From a virus, in IMG/VR virus record IMGVR_UViG_3300032157_000037, positions 1-30,426 of that record: DNA of 30,426 bases; one strand, given 5' to 3'. The position numbers were made by a program, and so were the translations under genes. Under the pieces are notes generated by a model that was given only the letters and a program-made list of their open reading frames with translations, ran no database searches and was not told the origin of the DNA. Shown one piece after another: positions 5,552 to 30,024 of the stretch; positions within the stretch are counted from its first letter, which is position 1; each line of letters starts with the position of its first letter.

Positions 5552-7531
5552 TTACCTCGCTGGTCGTTTAAGTCGGATGTGCATCGAGTACGCGATGAAG
5601 TACACTGGTGTGTCCACACCCGTTTTGCTAATTCGTACCTGAAAGTTAGTATGTTGCCCCGGCACAGTTGTGCGATAGCGGACATATTGCTCTCCACCGC
5701 CCCAAGTGAATGAACCCCCGGTAACTTCGCCCCAGATCGAGCCACTCGTGAAGACGTTGACGGTATCCTCAGTAGGAGATCCACTAAAGTCGGCATCGAC
5801 ACCGACGGTGACACTACCGTTCCAGTCGGCTCGTCTTAGGTGAACATAGAGTCGTCGTACCTGTTTATAGTTATCAGGAGCACCAAAGTCGTAGTAAGTG
5901 GTGAAATACTCAAATGCGATAGGCTTGCCCATATCACTGAACCCAATTTCACCGATATAGAGCGCCCCGACAGAGCCACTACCCATAATGAAGTTATCCT
6001 CACCCTTGAGGGTGGTCAGACCGAACTTAGTCCCTCGTCCCTCGTCATAGAACCATTCCTTGTATCGTTTCTCATAGACAAAGCACTGATTGAACTGGAC
6101 GGTACCCGTTTTTTGGAACCAGTAATATACCCTATCATCGAATATAGAGAGTGAGCTGGCGTCCACATCAGCGATGTCGTCTAGGTCAGCCTGAATAACA
6201 CGAGACAGCTGCTCGTCATCAGAGCCGTTCCAGCGATAGACATGCCTGTCAGGAGAGATAAAGAAGATGTAATTCTCGTCAGCCGCCACGCCCTCTTGGC
6301 TGATTGCTCCCTCTTTACCGAGAGACTGACGCACCTCAAGCGTTGCGAGGTCATAACCATACACCACGAACTTATTGCGCCTTGTGGGGACGACTAGGGT
6401 GTCCTGGAAGCTAATCAGTGCTGCAATCGGGTCGCCAGAGTTAGGTTCAGGGATATAGACGAACGACAGCCCCTCCCAAGTATTGTAATCACCGATATTA
6501 CTAAACTCTATTCGAGTTGGGTCATCGGCATCCACAATCCACAATCTGTTCTTATGCGAGACGACGTGGCTCGGTATAGTCGTCAGACCAGATACGGCAG
6601 CAAAAGCACCGCCTGTGCTACGCATCAGCGAGTCGACACCGTTAGCCACAAAAACCGCACCGTCAAATACTGCGAAGCGGTAGCGAGTCGCATTGGCGTC
6701 AAGACCACTCGCCACGCTGGTGGTCGAGCCGTCAACAGGATCTACGGTGTAGATATCCGTATTGTGCACTAAGAAATAGACATCATCTGCATTCTCTCTG
6801 CGCCAAACAAACCCATTCTTTGTCTCACCGGGAGTAGCAGTGTACACCCTGAAGTTGACACTGTATGCCTGATCTACCCAAGTATTTCCGCCGTTGACCG
6901 ATACTACCCCGTCAGTAGTATTAGTCGTAGTGGTAAGAGCATAGCTCTCGTCATCATCTTCAGTCTGGATATAGGTCACAATATAGTAGTCAGACGCCGC
7001 CGTGAGAAGTGGTGTGTCTACAAATCGAGCCTGAACATAGGCAGACGCAGTGTCGATGTCTGAACCGAGCAATGAGCTAGTCGCTATGACTGCTCCTGGA
7101 GCACCTGAGCTATCTGACCGTATCTCGACAATGACAGGGGATGTCCCGGGACTGGCGGTGTTGCTGTTGATACGGACGTCAACTGCTGTCAGTACCTCAC
7201 TCGATGCAGCAGTGAAGCGTTGTGCTACATAGGTCAATCGAGACAGTTCACTGGTCGCAGCACCAGCTGTAGACGTTTGAGAGACGTCAATGCCCTCACC
7301 GATAGGGACGGAGAAGAAGTCAGAGCCATTGCGGGTAGAAATAGCGACTTGTCGTTCTGTTTCGCTACTGTACATGCGAGCATTCCGAAGATACGGAGAA
7401 GCATAGTTTTCAAGTATGGTGTACGGATCAGTCGAATTGAGGCCGCGCATATCACGCACGACCTGTGGGGTGAGCTTGCGTCCAGACGGAGCCTGGCTGA
7501 CTCCCTTGCTGAAACGACTACGAGATGCCAC
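5552..7531 (-). CDS. Tail nozzle / DNA-stabilisation-like beta-propeller protein
   Basis: A 659-residue protein. Stretches such as SHKNRLWIVDADDPTRIEFS and ENYIFFISPDRHVYRWNGSD repeat the blade pattern of podovirus nozzle proteins (P22 gp10 / T7 gp12-like), which extend the tail tube below the adaptor. Residues about 95-200 carry an extra beta module (YVAQRFTAASSEVLTAVDVR, EIRSDSSGAPG) that resembles a choice-of-anchor R domain, possibly a surface-binding insertion. The GTG at 7531 is preferred over a TTG at 7537 because GAGGA is then about 9 bases upstream. It follows the adaptor gene by 2 bases, as in P22-like tails. Confidence 0.8.
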   Translation of the reverse strand: MASRSRFSKGVSQAPSGRKLTPQVVRDMRGLNSTDPYTILENYASPYLRNARMYSSETERQVAISTRNGSDFFSVPIGEGIDVSQTSTAGAATSELSRLTYVAQRFTAASSEVLTAVDVRINSNTASPGTSPVIVEIRSDSSGAPGAVIATSSLLGSDIDTASAYVQARFVDTPLLTAASDYYIVTYIQTEDDDESYALTTTTNTTDGVVSVNGGNTWVDQAYSVNFRVYTATPGETKNGFVWRRENADDVYFLVHNTDIYTVDPVDGSTTSVASGLDANATRYRFAVFDGAVFVANGVDSLMRSTGGAFAAVSGLTTIPSHVVSHKNRLWIVDADDPTRIEFSNIGDYNTWEGLSFVYIPEPNSGDPIAALISFQDTLVVPTRRNKFVVYGYDLATLEVRQSLGKEGAISQEGVAADENYIFFISPDRHVYRWNGSDDEQLSRVIQADLDDIADVDASSLSIFDDRVYYWFQKTGTVQFNQCFVYEKRYKEWFYDEGRGTKFGLTTLKGEDNFIMGSGSVGALYIGEIGFSDMGKPIAFEYFTTYYDFGAPDNYKQVRRLYVHLRRADWNGSVTVGVDADFSGSPTEDTVNVFTSGSIWGEVTGGSFTWGGGEQYVRYRTTVPGQHTNFQVRISKTGVDTPVYFIAYSMHIRLKRPAR

Positions 7532-7533
7532 GA

Positions 7534-8184
7534 TCAAATTCCTCTAAAGGTGTTGCGAAGGACGGTTGTCTTGCCCTTCTGTTGACTCGGTGCGTACCGC
7601 TTCACAAGAGACTGTATCAGTAGCTCCTTCTTACCATATTGATATTGAGCAATGTCGTTATCGTCATTCACCTCTAGTGCACGAATGTAAGCACCAAGGA
7701 TGAGCAGTTCACGGAACTCCTCTGGTATTTCAGGGACATCATTATCATTCTCAAGCTCTGCGGCAGTCTTAATGTAATCCTGCTCAAGAGTGAATGTACG
7801 GTCAGCTTGCCAGGCGAACTCTATCTCTTGATTATTGTTTAGTGTCCAGTAGCGAAGATTATTCTGCGATCGGTACTGCTGCTCTCGGAAATAGTCCTTA
7901 AAACGGTTGTAAGGAAGGAAATACTGCGTGAGTTCGACATCGTAATTCTGTGGGCCAGTGATACGAAGGCCGAGAGTGGTCTGGTGATCTGCTGGCAAAG
8001 TGATGGTATCATCACCCTGATTGATAGTATGGAGAGCAAATGTACGATTGAACGGAAGATTGTAATAGTTCAGTATCTCTCGTTGCTCATCGTTGATGAA
8101 GTTGTTGAGCAGGGAATTTGAAAAATCCTGGTCATCAAGGCGATCTTTTACTCTGTTTCTTATGTCTAAAAGTGTATAGGCCAT
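7534..8184 (-). CDS. Head-tail adaptor protein (P22 gp4 / T7 gp11-like)
   Basis: A 216-residue protein. The N-terminus (MAYTLLDIRNRVKDRLDDQDF, then LLNNFINDEQREILN) matches the helical start of podovirus adaptor proteins, followed by a beta-rich centre and a helical C-terminal half (EEFRELLILGAYIRALE). Family members form a dodecameric ring under the portal that closes the filled head and receives the nozzle. It is directly followed by the nozzle gene. A ribosome site AGAGG lies about 11 bases upstream. Confidence 0.82.
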   Translation of the reverse strand: MAYTLLDIRNRVKDRLDDQDFSNSLLNNFINDEQREILNYYNLPFNRTFALHTINQGDDTITLPADHQTTLGLRITGPQNYDVELTQYFLPYNRFKDYFREQQYRSQNNLRYWTLNNNQEIEFAWQADRTFTLEQDYIKTAAELENDNDVPEIPEEFRELLILGAYIRALEVNDDNDIAQYQYGKKELLIQSLVKRYAPSQQKGKTTVLRNTFRGI

Positions 8185-12136: not shown

Positions 12137-12853
12137 TTATTGCTCTATTCTAACACGTAGTTGGTAGTACCTGTCAATCCGCAGCTCCATTACCCTTTTT
12201 AGTCTATATGCCTCGCTCTTAATTTTCAATAATGAGGTTCTGGCGTGACTATCGGGACGACGCAGATAAATAGTGCATGGACGCTCCGTCTTCACGAATC
12301 TTGCCCCATTGGTGACTGCTGCTGCTATAAACGGTGCATTGGGTAAGTCATGATCTTCGTAGTTGCATTTCTCCCATATCCGTCGTCTATACGGACTTTG
12401 GGCAATAATGAATCCACCCCTCCCACCTTTTTGCCTATTTATAAAATTCTCTAGCGGTGTAACACCATCATGCTCCATGGTCGGAACGCCCAACCCTTTT
12501 GTTGTCCAACGAATACAAATCCAATCTGCATCCTTCTCATACTTCTGGAACTCCTCTATAGAATAGGGTTCGATTACATCATCAACCGAGAGATACATCA
12601 CCCACTCAGTAGTCGTTTTACTAACAGCAGCATTCCTCATCTGCCCCATATTTCGAGCTTCGCTTACTCTGACTATCTGCACACCTCTACTCGTAGCATC
12701 CTCATAAATCTTATTTGTTTCTGGGTCATCTGTCTCCTCCACGGCAATAACGAGTTGTTTCGGTTTGATGGTCATTTTCTCAACTGCATCAAGCCATTGG
12801 GGGATAAACCGCTGATAGCCGTTGTAGGCTATAGATACCATTGCTATATTCAT
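12137..12853 (-). CDS. Family 2 (GT-A) glycosyltransferase
   Basis: A 238-residue protein with a GT-A start (MNIAMVSIAYNGYQRFIPQW), an NMGQMRNAAVSKTTTEWVMY segment near residue 90 matching the family NxGxxxARN-type motif, and LSVDDVIEP as the metal/nucleotide-sugar-binding acidic site in place of a DxD. It probably transfers a sugar from an activated donor to a virion protein or host glycan in the cytoplasm. No membrane segment is seen. It overlaps the nitroreductase gene by 4 bases, with a second glycosyltransferase-like gene beyond, so three enzymes form one cassette downstream of the capsid gene. Confidence 0.85.
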   Translation of the reverse strand: MNIAMVSIAYNGYQRFIPQWLDAVEKMTIKPKQLVIAVEETDDPETNKIYEDATSRGVQIVRVSEARNMGQMRNAAVSKTTTEWVMYLSVDDVIEPYSIEEFQKYEKDADWICIRWTTKGLGVPTMEHDGVTPLENFINRQKGGRGGFIIAQSPYRRRIWEKCNYEDHDLPNAPFIAAAVTNGARFVKTERPCTIYLRRPDSHARTSLLKIKSEAYRLKRVMELRIDRYYQLRVRIEQ

Positions 12854-13473
12854 AGTATTTCCACCGTATCAATCAATCTACGAGTTTTATCTATCGGATC
12901 TGGGTGCGGATAACCTATAGCAACAGCACCGCAGAATATCGGCTCATCTAGCTGTGGTTTAAATCGCTCCTCGAAAAACTCTCTGTTCTCTTTACGAACC
13001 TGTGGATTGACAAATGCCGTGTGTAGCCCCAGTGATGTTGCGGACAGCATAATAGTCTGTGCCATTACGCCAGCATCGAGACGTGCATTATACTCCACCT
13101 CGTCGCCGTTATCGCCACCCTGATATGCTGCTCCATCCGCCCACAACATCAGCACTACTGGAGCACGGTAGAGCCAACCAGTCGCACCAACCAACAGTCC
13201 ATTTAATAAGGTCTTTCGGTCTCTGTCTTTTTCAATCTTAATGCGAACACCGAAGCGGTCGCAAGATGATGGAGCGTGTCGACATGTATCAAGTATAATG
13301 CTGAGAGTCTGGTCATCCACCCCCTTGTCGTCGAAACGCCTATTTGAGTGACGCTCTTTAATAATAGCGATAAGTTCGTCCCGTTTGCCACCGGGGTGTA
13401 CTTGATGAGCGAGATACCTATCCTGGTACTCGTTACTCTTTCCCTCGATGTCTGCCCCGACACTAGATTTCAT
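12850..13473 (-). CDS. Nitroreductase-family flavin enzyme
   Basis: A 207-residue protein with hallmarks of the FMN-dependent nitroreductase fold: IKERHSNRRFDDKGVDD (the R-x-S-x-R-x-F type phosphate-binding start), DTCRHAPSSCDRFGVRIKI, DAGVMAQTIMLSATSLGLH (long dimer helix) and CGAVAIGYPHPD near the end. Relatives reduce nitro groups, quinones or flavins, or act in cofactor and tailoring chemistry; the substrate here is unknown. The ATG at 13473 was chosen; a GTG two codons earlier is possible. It overlaps both neighbouring glycosyltransferase genes, an unusual setting in a phage virion block, suggesting a role in making or modifying a decoration. Confidence 0.82.
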   Translation of the reverse strand: MKSSVGADIEGKSNEYQDRYLAHQVHPGGKRDELIAIIKERHSNRRFDDKGVDDQTLSIILDTCRHAPSSCDRFGVRIKIEKDRDRKTLLNGLLVGATGWLYRAPVVLMLWADGAAYQGGDNGDEVEYNARLDAGVMAQTIMLSATSLGLHTAFVNPQVRKENREFFEERFKPQLDEPIFCGAVAIGYPHPDPIDKTRRLIDTVEIL

Positions 13474-14140
13474 ATACACTCTTTCCTGGGAACATTTCCC
13501 TTATTGCTTTACCAATCGGTGATTTTTCAAATGTTAGCTCGCTAGTGGCAACGAACGGTCCTTCTGGCATTATATCATCTATCCTTGTTGCCTTCACGTC
13601 AGCGACCTTCTCGCCACCTAGTCCTGACATATTCCCATAAAGACTCAGTTTGTTATACATGTAGGGGCGGTCGACCTCCTCTATCTTTAGAAAGTCGGCT
13701 TTGTGGATAATGACTGGCATGTGTAGCTCGTAATTAAGCGTCGTGAACCCGTTACCCCTTAGCCAATCTGCGGTGCGTTGCATACGACGTTGGTGCCAGC
13801 TTGACCCACTATTATTCATCTCGCTGTAGTCACCCCTGTGTTTCGGGAGTATCTCATCAACAGGCTCCTTGATACAAAAATCATCGTGGAGAAGAATGAA
13901 CGGGTCGCTCACTCTATCATCCTTACAGGCAGTCAGCATGTTAGTCAGACTATTCATGGCAGCACCCCTGTTTTGCTCTAGCGGCACATACGTCACGTTT
14001 GTCACAAAGTCTGGCTTATACCCATATATAAAGACATTACCACTAAAGTCGAGATTGGATAAGCTACGGAGCGAGTAGAGCAATTCAGGATTGTCACCAG
14101 TTCTCACTATATACACTACATCACAAGCACTCGTTTTCAT
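13463..14140 (-). CDS. Glycosyltransferase-like protein (Stealth/capsule-type start)
   Basis: A 225-residue protein. ACDVVYIVRTGDNPELLYSL, then RSLSNLDFSGNVFIYGYKP, matches the start of Stealth and related capsular glycosyltransferases. SDPFILLHDDFCIKEP near residue 80 supplies the acidic metal site (HDD in place of DxD). The middle holds aromatic and His residues (SSWHQRRMQRTADWL). No signal or membrane segment is seen. It starts 16 bases after the capsid terminator, and a TATAAT abuts its ATG, but no -35 is evident. It is probably expressed by read-through at a level below capsid. Confidence 0.72.
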   Translation of the reverse strand: MKTSACDVVYIVRTGDNPELLYSLRSLSNLDFSGNVFIYGYKPDFVTNVTYVPLEQNRGAAMNSLTNMLTACKDDRVSDPFILLHDDFCIKEPVDEILPKHRGDYSEMNNSGSSWHQRRMQRTADWLRGNGFTTLNYELHMPVIIHKADFLKIEEVDRPYMYNKLSLYGNMSGLGGEKVADVKATRIDDIMPEGPFVATSELTFEKSPIGKAIREMFPGKSVYEI

Positions 14141-14203: not shown

Positions 14204-15829
14204 TTAGACAGAAGTAGTTGAGTCTTTGACGCGAACGCCGTGGTCTGTACGAAGTACTGAACCACCCCAGATTGCCTGGGTGACGATAAGATCGCCAAGG
14301 TATTCAGTCTTACGCTGTTTCTCAGTAACAGGACTCTTTTGCACTGCGAGTGCAAATGCTTCCTTTTGGAAGAACAAGCTTACACCTTCAAGGTTTTGGC
14401 TCATATATACTTCATTACCAAGAAGTGTACCGACCTTACCAGTTTTAATTGGTGAAGGCTGACCGCTTGCACCCATTGCATCGTAACGAATGAACTCGTC
14501 TACGTTCAGGAGGTCACGGTGACCTTCTGGAGTAACAACGAAGTATCGCTCGCTAAGTGGTGCTTTAGCAACATCAAGTGCCAATTTTGCTGCAAGGACA
14601 GCTTCATAAGTGATTGCTGTAGCGAATGCACCAACTTCTTGAGTGAAGTTAGCAGTCATTTCTACTGCGATGAAGTTGTCAATCTTTTCAGCAATAGCAT
14701 AACCGGTCTTTGCACGGTATTCAACTTGCATATCGTATTGAGACTGAACGTCTGTAATATCTTCGATAAGCACAGATGCTTCCCAGTGCTGGTCAATGTT
14801 GATTACTACTTCACCTTCAGTGATACCGTTAAGTACAACTTCGGTGTTTGCAACCTTAGCGTGAGCGACAAGATTACTGAGGTTAGGGACATGAATAGTG
14901 TCACCTTTGCTCATAACATCTCGGTCGTAGCGCTTAACCAGGTTAGCAAGGACGAGGTTGCTCTCACGAGCTGCAAGTACCTCTGATGCCCATACTTCCA
15001 ATCTGTTACTTTCAGTCAGGTTAGTGGATTAGTCTAACCCTTTAGACCTACAGACCCCTTGCGAGGCGGGGGAACTCTTCGGTATCCCCTCTGCACTTTA
15101 ATTGGCATGAGTTATATGTGCAGTTCAGACTGTCGCTTCGGGGTTTCCCCCGTTCGTTCACTCAGTCGTTGCAACCGGCTTACCTTTTAGTATCTTAAGC
15201 TCATCGAATATTTCTAATGCTCTATTCCAGTCGGTTTTGTCTTTCTTACGCCTATAGGCGTAATCCATCTGGCAGAACTCTAGTAATAATTCAGCTTGAG
15301 TCTTTTTAACTATAAGGTACGGAATGATTTCTGGTAAAAACTCTTTTAGAGCCTTTTTACCTTTTATCTCTAAAGTGACAGCTCCTCGGTGATTATCATA
15401 CGAGTTTTTCGTATGTATGTGTCCCCCATACATATCCTGTAAACGATATAATATGTCGGCATCATCTTTCACTTGAGATACTTTCATAGCAGGATAGAAG
15501 CCGTGTCTTTTATAAATCACAATTTTATTCTGTGTTTTAGAAAAGTATTTGGCATTTGTGCCACTACGTTTCATCAGGCCAAAATATCCTTCCCCGTCCA
15601 GAAACCCTGCTACATATGCTTCGGATATATTCATATCTTCAGTATACCATAGTGTAGGTTACCAGAACAAGCCTTGTTGTGGGTTATCCTCTCCAGGACT
15701 TTCCCAATTAATCAGAACGAATTATCAATGTAAATGTACATTTTTACCCATAGCTAGTATTTTCTAGCTGCTTTTAGGTATCCAAGTTGCGTTAGTGGTT
15801 ACTGTAAGTTGGTTTGATCCTAATGCCAT
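14204..15829 (-). CDS. Major capsid protein, two exons split by a group I intron
   Basis: Exon 1 is 15829-15776 and encodes MALGSNQLTVTTNATWIP after a strong AAGGAG site. Exon 2 is 14998-14204 and continues EVWASEVLAARESNLVLANL. Joined, they give 282 residues with the usual capsid opening (T-x-A-T-x-I-P-E-V-W-A-x-E-V) and a typical HK97-fold capsid body (KGDTIHVPN, the long helix near AEKIDNFIAVEM, the C-terminal GVRVKD). Without splicing, ribosomes would stop after three intron codons (Lys-Ser-Ser-TAG). The frame that appears to start at a TTG at 15001 is only exon 2 plus the last intron bases. Preceded by the scaffold gene and followed by a strong terminator. The gene product is near-certain; in vivo splicing is inferred. 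Confidence 0.9.
14999..15775 (-). ncRNA. Group I self-splicing intron in the capsid gene
   Basis: 777 nt on the minus strand. The core reads as: P1 exon UACCU (15776-15780) with guide GGGUA (15745-15749), including the U-G pair at the splice site; a 6-bp hairpin AGCUAG/CUAGCU in the P1 loop; P3 UUCGUUC (15715-15721) with GAACGAA (15153-15159); P4 UGGG/CCCA (15703-15706, 15680-15683); P5 GUCC/GGAU; P6 AACAA/UUGUU; P7 GACUG (15163-15167) with CAGUC (15128-15132); and P8 CGGGG-GAAA-CCCCG (15139-15152). A P9-type stem CUGCAC/GUGCAG (15118-15123, 15091-15096) and further small hairpins precede the final G at 14999. P10 is not obvious. The flanking exons join in frame. Confidence 0.9.
15158..15634 (-). 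CDS. LAGLIDADG homing endonuclease encoded in the intron
   Basis: A 158-residue protein with one LAGLIDADG motif near the N-terminus (AYVAGFLDGEGYFGL, acidic residue in the GEG position) and the usual alpha-beta-beta-alpha continuation (GAVTLEIKGKKALKEFLPEI). One motif means it should act as a homodimer that cuts intronless copies of the capsid gene near the insertion site; it may also help folding as a maturase. The frame sits between P6 and P7, and its stop codon overlaps the P3 3' strand, so the last codons are also P7. The ribosome site is weak, suiting low expression. Confidence 0.88.
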   Translation of the reverse strand: MNISEAYVAGFLDGEGYFGLMKRSGTNAKYFSKTQNKIVIYKRHGFYPAMKVSQVKDDADILYRLQDMYGGHIHTKNSYDNHRGAVTLEIKGKKALKEFLPEIIPYLIVKKTQAELLLEFCQMDYAYRRKKDKTDWNRALEIFDELKILKGKPVATTE

Positions 15830-28179: not shown

Positions 28180-28376
28180 CAGACTACGACAAAGAACTAG
28201 ATGAGATACTAGAGCAGGTCGCTTGGTTTGGTTCATATAAAAGGAGTGGTGACGAACCCGAAGGTCCAACACTATCCCCCAATGAAGCCAAGCAACGCCT
28301 CAAATCCCTCCTAGCCAAGGCTAAACAGGAGGGTTATGACGAGTGTAGAAAGGAGATGACGGAAAATGAGCAATAA
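28176..28376 (+). CDS. Small early protein, unknown, 66 residues
   Basis: MTDYDKELDEILEQVAWFGS to CRKEMTENEQ, acidic and helical, with a Gly/Pro-rich middle (RSGDEPEGPTLSPNEAKQRL). It has a GAGGAGGGG ribosome site. It opens with the same type of D-E-I-L helix as the protein at 27520. It overlaps the next gene by 11 bases. Confidence 0.65.
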   Translation: MTDYDKELDEILEQVAWFGSYKRSGDEPEGPTLSPNEAKQRLKSLLAKAKQEGYDECRKEMTENEQ

Positions 28377-29028
28377 AGGGCTGAGACACCATGGTCTAAG
28401 TGGTACTCCTGAAAACAAAGCATGGAGCAATATGAAACAGCGGTGCAATAATCCTAATCGTGATGATTATAGACATTATGGCGGGCGTGGAATCAAAGTA
28501 TGCGAACGATGGTCGGGTGCAGGTGGTTTTTTGAACTTCTTAGAAGACATGGGTAAAAGACCATCACCTAACCATTCAATAGACCGTATTGACGTTAATA
28601 GTGACTATAGCCCAGAAAACTGCCGATGGGCTACAAGAAGACAACAGACTTTCAATGTACGACCAAGAGGAAAGAATACTAGTGGAATAATCGGCGTCCA
28701 TATGTCGAATGGACACTGGGTAGCAATGGCAGGTAGGAATTACGTTGGTCGTTTCGATACAGTCGAAGAAGCAGCCGAGGCGCGTCGACAAGCGCTTAAC
28801 GAGGCTGGGTTCTTTACTAAAGATGAAGTAGACAGGCTAGTCAAATTGGCACGATTGAACGGTGCTATTGAGGAGCTGGAGAAGTTCGACAAAAACTCGG
28901 ACGAATTTTACAGTGGGGACGATTGGTTCACCGATGAAGAAATAAGAAAGAACACATCAAAAGGTGTGAGCATAGCCTATTTTGAACAGCGTCTCGCCAC
29001 CTTAAAAGAGCAGAGAGAGAAGCTATGA
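28366..29028 (+). CDS. HNH/AP2-type homing endonuclease-like protein with fused extra domain
   Basis: A 220-residue protein in three parts. Residues 1-95 match phage HNH-like nucleases: SGTPENKAWSNMKQRCNNP, YGGRGIKVCERW and DRIDVNSDYSPENCRWATR. Residues about 103-145 form an AP2-like DNA-binding module (SGIIGVHMSNGHWVAMAGRN then GRFDTVEEAAEARRQAL). Residues about 148-220 are an unrelated acidic helical domain resembling the small early proteins around it. The fusion looks like insertion of a mobile nuclease into, or in frame with, a resident small gene. AAAGGAGATGACGG lies upstream. Nuclease activity is probable but untested. Confidence 0.82.
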   Translation: MSNKGLRHHGLSGTPENKAWSNMKQRCNNPNRDDYRHYGGRGIKVCERWSGAGGFLNFLEDMGKRPSPNHSIDRIDVNSDYSPENCRWATRRQQTFNVRPRGKNTSGIIGVHMSNGHWVAMAGRNYVGRFDTVEEAAEARRQALNEAGFFTKDEVDRLVKLARLNGAIEELEKFDKNSDEFYSGDDWFTDEEIRKNTSKGVSIAYFEQRLATLKEQREKL

Positions 29029-29343: not shown

Positions 29344-29407
29344 TTTATGTCGCCTCCCCCAGAGTAGATGTAAAGACGGTCAATGTGATGCGCAGGGTAC
29401 GGCATGA
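29336..29407 (+). CDS. Cys-rich microprotein, 23 residues
   Basis: MCNLCRLPQSRCKDGQCDAQ then GTA. Cys at residues 2, 5, 12 and 17 form a C-x2-C ... C-x4-C set that could bind one metal ion. AGGGAG lies within about 10 bases upstream, and it overlaps the preceding and following genes by 8 and 4 bases. Very short, so tentative. Confidence 0.42.
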   Translation: MCNLCRLPQSRCKDGQCDAQGTA

Positions 29408-30024
29408 AGATACTAAACTTATATGCTGGAATTGGCGGCAACCGTAAACTCTGGGGCGATGAGCATGAGGTTACTGCTGTTGAGAGCGAACAATACATCG
29501 CAGATGCTTATAAGCTGATGTACCCGAACGATACTGTTATTGTTGCAGACGCTCACCAATACCTAATAGACCACTCCGATGAGTTTGATTTTATCTGGTC
29601 AAGCCCGCCATGCCCCACACACTCGAGAGCTAATTCATTTCTTCATGCTCAAGGTGTAAGGCGATACCCAGACATGAGCCTGTACCAAGAGATACTATTC
29701 TTGAAGCACAGATACAAGGGTAAGTGGGTAGTCGAGAACGTAATACCATATTATGAACCTTTGGTTGCACCGACAGCCAAGATTGACAGACACTACTACT
29801 GGAGCAACTTTGCAATAAAAGACCCCAATTTCAAGAGATTTAAGAAGTTCAATGTAGCTAATGCAAGGTCTACAACCAGAGTTTCTGCAGCAGAAGACCA
29901 CGCAACACTACAGGAACACCACGGAATATACTTACCAGAAGGCACTAAGAACCAGCGTAAACTTCTGAGAAATGCAGTTCACCCAGAAATGGGACTACAC
30001 ATACTAAACGAGGCTGAACTATGA
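29404..30024 (+). CDS. C5-cytosine DNA methyltransferase, compact
   Basis: A 206-residue protein with motif I LNLYAGIGGNR (5-14, AdoMet site), motif IV SSPPCPTHSRA with catalytic Cys70, motif VI WVVENV (108-113, Glu111) and a final LLRNAVHPEMG matching motif X (N-A-V-x-P). Length is about half that of a full restriction-system enzyme, with little target-recognition domain. It adds a methyl group to cytosine C5 in DNA. No endonuclease partner is adjacent, so it is an orphan enzyme, probably protecting phage DNA from host restriction or altering gene control. It overlaps the following gene by 4 bases. Confidence 0.9.
   Translation: MKILNLYAGIGGNRKLWGDEHEVTAVESEQYIADAYKLMYPNDTVIVADAHQYLIDHSDEFDFIWSSPPCPTHSRANSFLHAQGVRRYPDMSLYQEILFLKHRYKGKWVVENVIPYYEPLVAPTAKIDRHYYWSNFAIKDPNFKRFKKFNVANARSTTRVSAAEDHATLQEHHGIYLPEGTKNQRKLLRNAVHPEMGLHILNEAEL

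Follow-up and report, generated by a model that had tools for sequence, protein, structure and literature searches.

A predicted mobile group I intron within a phage major capsid gene, and related introns at neighbouring codons

Introns in phage capsid genes are already known, and the locus described here adds one to those of LittleE and Tuc2009. In mycobacteriophage LittleE, splicing of the intron in the major capsid gene (gp13) was demonstrated by RT-PCR and N-terminal protein sequencing; the type of the intron was considered unclear, with group I as the most likely (PMC3706429). The same paper (PMC3706429) cites lactococcal phage Tuc2009 (AF109874), whose major head gene (orf37/orf39) contains a group I intron. 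The major capsid genes of mirusviruses, which are related to tailed phages, contain introns carrying homing endonucleases (PMC12768974). Endonucleases are common near capsid genes (PMC10448857), and in a jumbo phage an endonuclease encoded by an intron interferes with a phage that infects the same cell (PMC11620839).

The DNA analysed here (the window) is an uncultured virus record of 30,426 bases, whose minus strand carries the portal, terminase and head genes. The capsid gene was closely followed downstream by genes for a nitroreductase-family protein (12850-13479, minus strand; PF00881, 2e-15) and for a glycosyltransferase of family 2 (12137-12853). Two large proteins (5552-7537 and 13463-14140, both on the minus strand) had no Pfam match, and the second matched phrog_7999 (2e-45). 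On the plus strand, an HNH endonuclease (28366-29028; phrog_374, 3e-53) was apparently free-standing, and a short C-5 cytosine methyltransferase-like ORF (29404-30024) matched only the first third of the PF00145 profile.

The major capsid gene was found in two pieces on the minus strand, separated by an insert of 777 nt (Table 1). Exon 2 was identified as the major head protein by its matches to phrog_267 (3e-44) and to Pfam Phage_capsid_4. Exon 1 was preceded immediately by a Shine-Dalgarno sequence (AAGGAG), and joining the two exons gave a capsid protein of 282 aa. Without joining, the frame from exon 1 stopped after MALGSNQLTVTTNATWIPKSS, three codons into the insert (KSS*).

In about 100 of the relatives retrieved with the capsid sequence alone, the N-terminus continued without a break across the junction of the window, for example MALGTDHVTTTSGATFIP-EVWSDEVIAAYKSNL in L004 and MALGTNHVTKTTADKFVP-EVWSDEI in L003. 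Two of about 103 capsid relatives (L034 and L060) were split at the same codon boundary, and one contig (L100) ended there. Because these genes read straight through the junction, we took both exons and their join to be real. The initial annotation had placed exon 1 777 nt 5' of the capsid frame, and its coordinates were confirmed. Exact ligation of the exons gave back the conserved reading frame, as expected of a group I intron. The capsid relatives occurred in metagenome bins of several phyla, and indicated no single host.

It had also been claimed that no capsid can be made without splicing. This claim is inferential, as a TTG at 15001-14999, where an open frame begins, could start an N-terminally truncated capsid. 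Exon 1 would then be a decayed remnant and the capsid would be translated from exon 2 only. This TTG lacked a Shine-Dalgarno sequence, whereas exon 1 had a good one. Exon 1 was moreover intact and similar to its relatives, an N-terminal arm was present in all uninterrupted relatives inspected, and the same architecture recurred in about 85 contigs. We therefore considered translation from exon 2 alone highly improbable.

Table 1. Positions of the capsid exons, the intron, its helices and its reading frame in the window
Feature	Position	Strand	Description
Exon 1, major capsid gene	15776..15829	-	18 codons, MALGSNQLTVTTNATWIP; N-terminus conserved in uninterrupted relatives
Group I intron	14999..15775	-	777 nt; splice sites after U15776 (5') and G14999 (3')
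P1 exon strand UACCU	15776..15780	-	terminal U pairs with guide G; minimum-energy fold
P1 internal guide GGGUA	15745..15749	-	minimum-energy fold; co-varies with exon in relatives
P3 5' strand UUCGUUC	15715..15721	-	both-sided changes in 5 of 7 pairs, 100% paired
P4 5' strand UGGG	15703..15706	-	partner CCCA 15683-15680; 100% paired in the seven-intron alignment
P5 hairpin GUCCU-GGAG-AGGAU	15686..15699	-	outer three pairs in covariation set, 86% paired
P6 5' strand CAAC	15676..15679	-	partner GUUG 15175-15172; inner P6 100% paired, 2 of 4 pairs co-vary
P6 distal GGCUU/AAGCC	15673-15669/15181-15177	-	by inspection only
LAGLIDADG homing endonuclease ORF	15158..15634	-	158 aa, single motif YVAGFLDGEG, P6 loop; PF00961
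P7 5' strand GACUG	15163..15167	-	covariation alignment, P7 100% paired
P3 3' strand GAACGAA	15153..15159	-	covariation alignment
P8 hairpin CGGGG-GAAA-CCCCG	15139..15152	-	fold; only closing pair in covariation set, kept
P7 3' strand CAGUC	15128..15132	-	GC to AU on both sides in 2 of 7 introns
P9 hairpin CUGCAC...GUGCAG	15091..15123	-	minimum-energy fold
Exon 2, major capsid gene	14204..14998	-	EVWASEV...; 264 codons and stop; phrog_267, Phage_capsid_4

The insert ended with G14999, as a group I intron demands. All the elements listed in the initial annotation (P1 with its U-G pair, P3, P4, P5, P6, P7, P8 with a GAAA loop and the terminal G) were present. P1 appeared in the minimum-energy fold of the window (z = -3.0). 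Inspection of the window by eye revealed no convincing P10 pairing. When the insert was dinucleotide-shuffled 3000 times, 77 of the shuffles (2.6%) satisfied a loose descriptor of P3-P4-P5-P7-P8. The fold of a single sequence is weak evidence, and is not decisive.

On the other hand, homologous introns carried compensatory changes, and it was these that made the group I reading convincing. The cores of seven introns (the window, L285, L293, L271, L269, L279 and L281) were stripped of their ORFs and compared over 24 pairs, comprising P3, P4, P5, P6, P7 and the base of P8, with P1 judged separately. Pairing was retained in 98.2% of the cells, and both-sided changes occurred in 10 of the 24 pairs. 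The covariation score was 0.466, against 0.174 +/- 0.030 in shuffled alignments (none of 500 reached 0.466) and at most 0.103 with the partners slid; the window had served as the model for the drawn structure and the relatives were hand-picked, and the slid control retains their relatedness, yet may still favour the drawn structure.

In the P3/P7 core, five pairs of P3 and one of P7 co-varied, and both helices were fully paired. P3 was the clearest case: UUCGUUC/GAACGAA was replaced by UCUAUUC/GAAUAGA, UUCACUC/GAGUGAA, UACUCUC/GAGAGUA, CAUUAUC/GAUAAUG or UCUUUUC/GAAAAGA. The closest intron, L285, had a core 86% identical to that of the window, with a capsid 43% and an endonuclease about 29-30% identical. 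Compensatory changes between these two were found in P3 (three) and in P1, P5 and P7 (one each).

The initial annotation had proposed a covariance match in Rfam, which was not obtained for either the window or the intron. RF00028 gave no match to the intron even at E = 10, and the Rfam group I search found nothing in the window, the intron, its 3' half or six sibling loci. As a control, the proven T4 td intron scored 40.3 bits in a permissive search of its gene, below the 50-bit cut-off of RF00028. It was thus missed at the gathering score, although unlike the intron of the window it did score in the permissive search. Since td and the six siblings were missed too, this test lacked power here. 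That the lack of a match should refute the intron, as had been proposed, is a criterion not to be applied, for the td intron fails it as well; a gathering match to RF00028 is a detection test and not a defining feature of group I introns. The long ORF splitting the core probably explains the miss in part.

The absence of an Rfam score might also be read as a sign that the intron is inactive or helper-dependent, and the contig a defective genome. We regarded this as very unlikely, since every core helix was intact, the endonuclease ORF was open with the acidic residues of its motif present, and the preservation of helix pairs by compensatory change implied selection for splicing.

Other types of element can interrupt phage genes too, and a group II intron, an intein, a translational bypass or an assembly chimera were considered. 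The Rfam group II families gave no match, either at gathering or at E up to 10. An intein or other in-frame insertion was excluded by the stop four codons into the insert (...TWIPKSS*), and an assembly chimera because many independent contigs carry homologous introns at this site. We know of no precedent for a translational bypass of 777 nt with an embedded endonuclease. Taken together, the chance that the insert is such an element appeared negligible.

A group I intron at the splice sites of the initial annotation was thus upheld, and was the only reading to account together for the exon continuity, for a P1 with its terminal U-G in nearly all homologues, for the covariation of P3-P8, and for the terminal G and endonuclease ORF. 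We concluded that a mobile group I intron very probably interrupts the capsid gene after codon 18, with predicted splicing and homing. Its identity was assigned with high confidence, and its activity was inferred from structure and exon continuity.

The endonuclease ORF, which like the wider intron family was absent from the initial annotation, filled most of the insert, its 3' end overlapping P7 and the first bases of the P3 3' strand. It scored 24.9 bits against PF00961 (cut-off 23.1). Used alone as the query against viral contigs it gave no match, and its relatives therefore had to be found by profile searches. A profile of seven such endonucleases matched the single-chain I-MsoI (1.8e-20) and I-CreI (1.7e-10). 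The presence of one motif per chain, as in the I-MsoI and I-CreI families, suggested that the predicted enzyme is a homodimer. A nucleotide search of isolated phages with the intron halves gave no match.

A promoter-like sequence (TTGTTC-18-TATACT) was seen by eye before the endonuclease of the window, and was not reported by a consensus scan. In the intron of L111, a near-consensus TTGACA-17-TAAAAT, stronger than that of the window, was seen by eye directly before the endonuclease (upstream of 2983).

Among the loci from the profile search for which full data were available, 84, counting the window, had a LAGLIDADG ORF directly before capsid exon 2; a few of these are overlapping duplicates of a contig already counted, and in at least one (L115) the capsid gene that follows is uninterrupted. 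Distinct endonucleases were present in 58 of the 84. About 85 viral contigs appeared from their sequences to carry such capsid introns, mostly at the exact codon boundary of the window.

The insertion sites were assigned by a script with four requirements: U as the last base of exon 1, G as the last base of the intron, pairing in P1, and a capsid motif restored on joining. It placed 68 loci exactly at the boundary of the window (site 0), and the window, L275, L277 and L266 were assigned there by inspection; these proportions are biased, because the loci were selected by endonuclease similarity. Other sites were -3 (L293), +5 (L271 and L113/L269/L270) and +6 (L229), and about 15 loci were placed by reading at +10, between UUUGGU and CAGAUGAA. 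A P1 of 4-8 pairs with a terminal U-G, and a terminal G, recurred across the family. As the U-G and the terminal G were demanded by the script, the long P1 helices are the informative part. Two types of endonuclease, about 25-29% identical to each other, were both found at site 0.

Several individual loci may be mentioned. L293 (2340-3042) and L285 (2369-3053) shared the capsid motif VFRPNVWSSEV and had similar introns at sites 3 nt apart; the guide changes matched the change of site, and the insertion point seems to shift. In L115 (3001-3732), a related LAGLIDADG ORF lay just 5' of an unsplit capsid gene, and is possibly free-standing or differently placed. In Sphingobium phage Lacusarx (L027, 2423-3311), a LAGLIDADG ORF related to that of the window overlapped the annotated tmRNA gene, and may sit in an element inserted next to or in the tmRNA.

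Mobility was supported by presence/absence and swap polymorphisms among the relatives. L231, with an intron at +10, and L428, with none, shared 98.4% and 98.8% identity in the roughly 900 nt to either side. A comparable pair for site 0 was L203 (intron) and L413 (empty), where the stretch compared upstream was shorter. The flanks of L197 (site 0) and L227 (+10) were 98.4% (2.4 kb) and 99.7% (1.8 kb) identical, but their introns were only about 71% identical and 10 nt apart, one between FIP and EIW and the other inside the codon after W. L199 and L222 were a second such pair, near-identical capsid regions with different introns 10 nt apart. Endonucleases 51-66% identical also occurred in capsid genes just 16-30% identical. 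An intron-free allele or a swap was searched for in the capsid lineage of the window itself, and none was found.

Mobile introns thus seem to land repeatedly in the capsid gene. With flanks about 98-99.7% identical carrying different introns or none, FIPEIWSDE looks like a homing hot spot. Our fuller proposal is that at least two diverged intron-endonuclease lineages within about 14 nt (-3, 0, +5, +6 and +10) replace one another in near-identical phages and compete at these codons, and perhaps serve as a weapon against intron-free co-infecting phages. This is tentative, and we give it somewhat less than an even chance. A search of open-licence papers found no description of a recurrent intron site at FIPEIW. 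The hot spot with its rival introns is a more interesting result than the intron of the window.

The proposed course of events is as follows. The intron RNA would fold into a group I core, in which exon 1 is bound through its 3' end (UACCU) to the guide GGGUA. Splicing initiated by guanosine would join CCU to GAA and yield the full-length capsid protein. The ORF in the P6 loop would encode a homing endonuclease like I-CreI and I-MsoI, probably acting as a homodimer. Where a co-infecting phage has a capsid gene free of the intron, this enzyme would cut that gene at the conserved FIPEIW codons, and its repair would introduce a copy of the intron.

If splicing occurs here as predicted, the late gene that a phage expresses most highly can depend on RNA splicing. 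Capsid introns are no curiosity, as many uncultured phages carry them at the same few codons. Because Rfam misses these introns, automated annotation is likely to record such capsid genes as truncated. Near-identical phages with rival introns 10 nt apart, or with none, offer a natural system for the study of competition between homing introns.

Among the known systems, LittleE resembles the window in that its major capsid gene, of the HK97 type, contains a group I-type intron and a LAGLIDADG endonuclease within it. Its insertion site, between GG and YAVPPLW, lies about 12 nt upstream of the apparent counterpart of the motif (VPPLW for FIPEIW, by motif reading and not structural alignment). It differs in that its endonuclease ORF is on the opposite strand, its sequence is unrelated, and its exon 1 has about 165 codons owing to a long cleaved N-terminal domain, against 18 codons in the window. 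In Tuc2009 the group I intron again lies near the start of the major head gene, but in another capsid motif (GNTLKFPAW) and with an intron ORF that lacks the LAGLIDADG motif.

The td and nrdB introns of T4 are likewise ORF-bearing phage group I introns below the Rfam cut-off. They lie in other host genes, and their endonucleases are GIY-YIG (td) and H-N-H (nrdB) according to the T4 record. The mirusvirus introns differ in being spliceosomal, in occurring in eukaryotic viruses and in carrying HNH endonucleases. I-MsoI and I-CreI, which are found in algal rRNA introns, share the single-motif LAGLIDADG fold with the endonuclease of the window, and differ in their DNA target.
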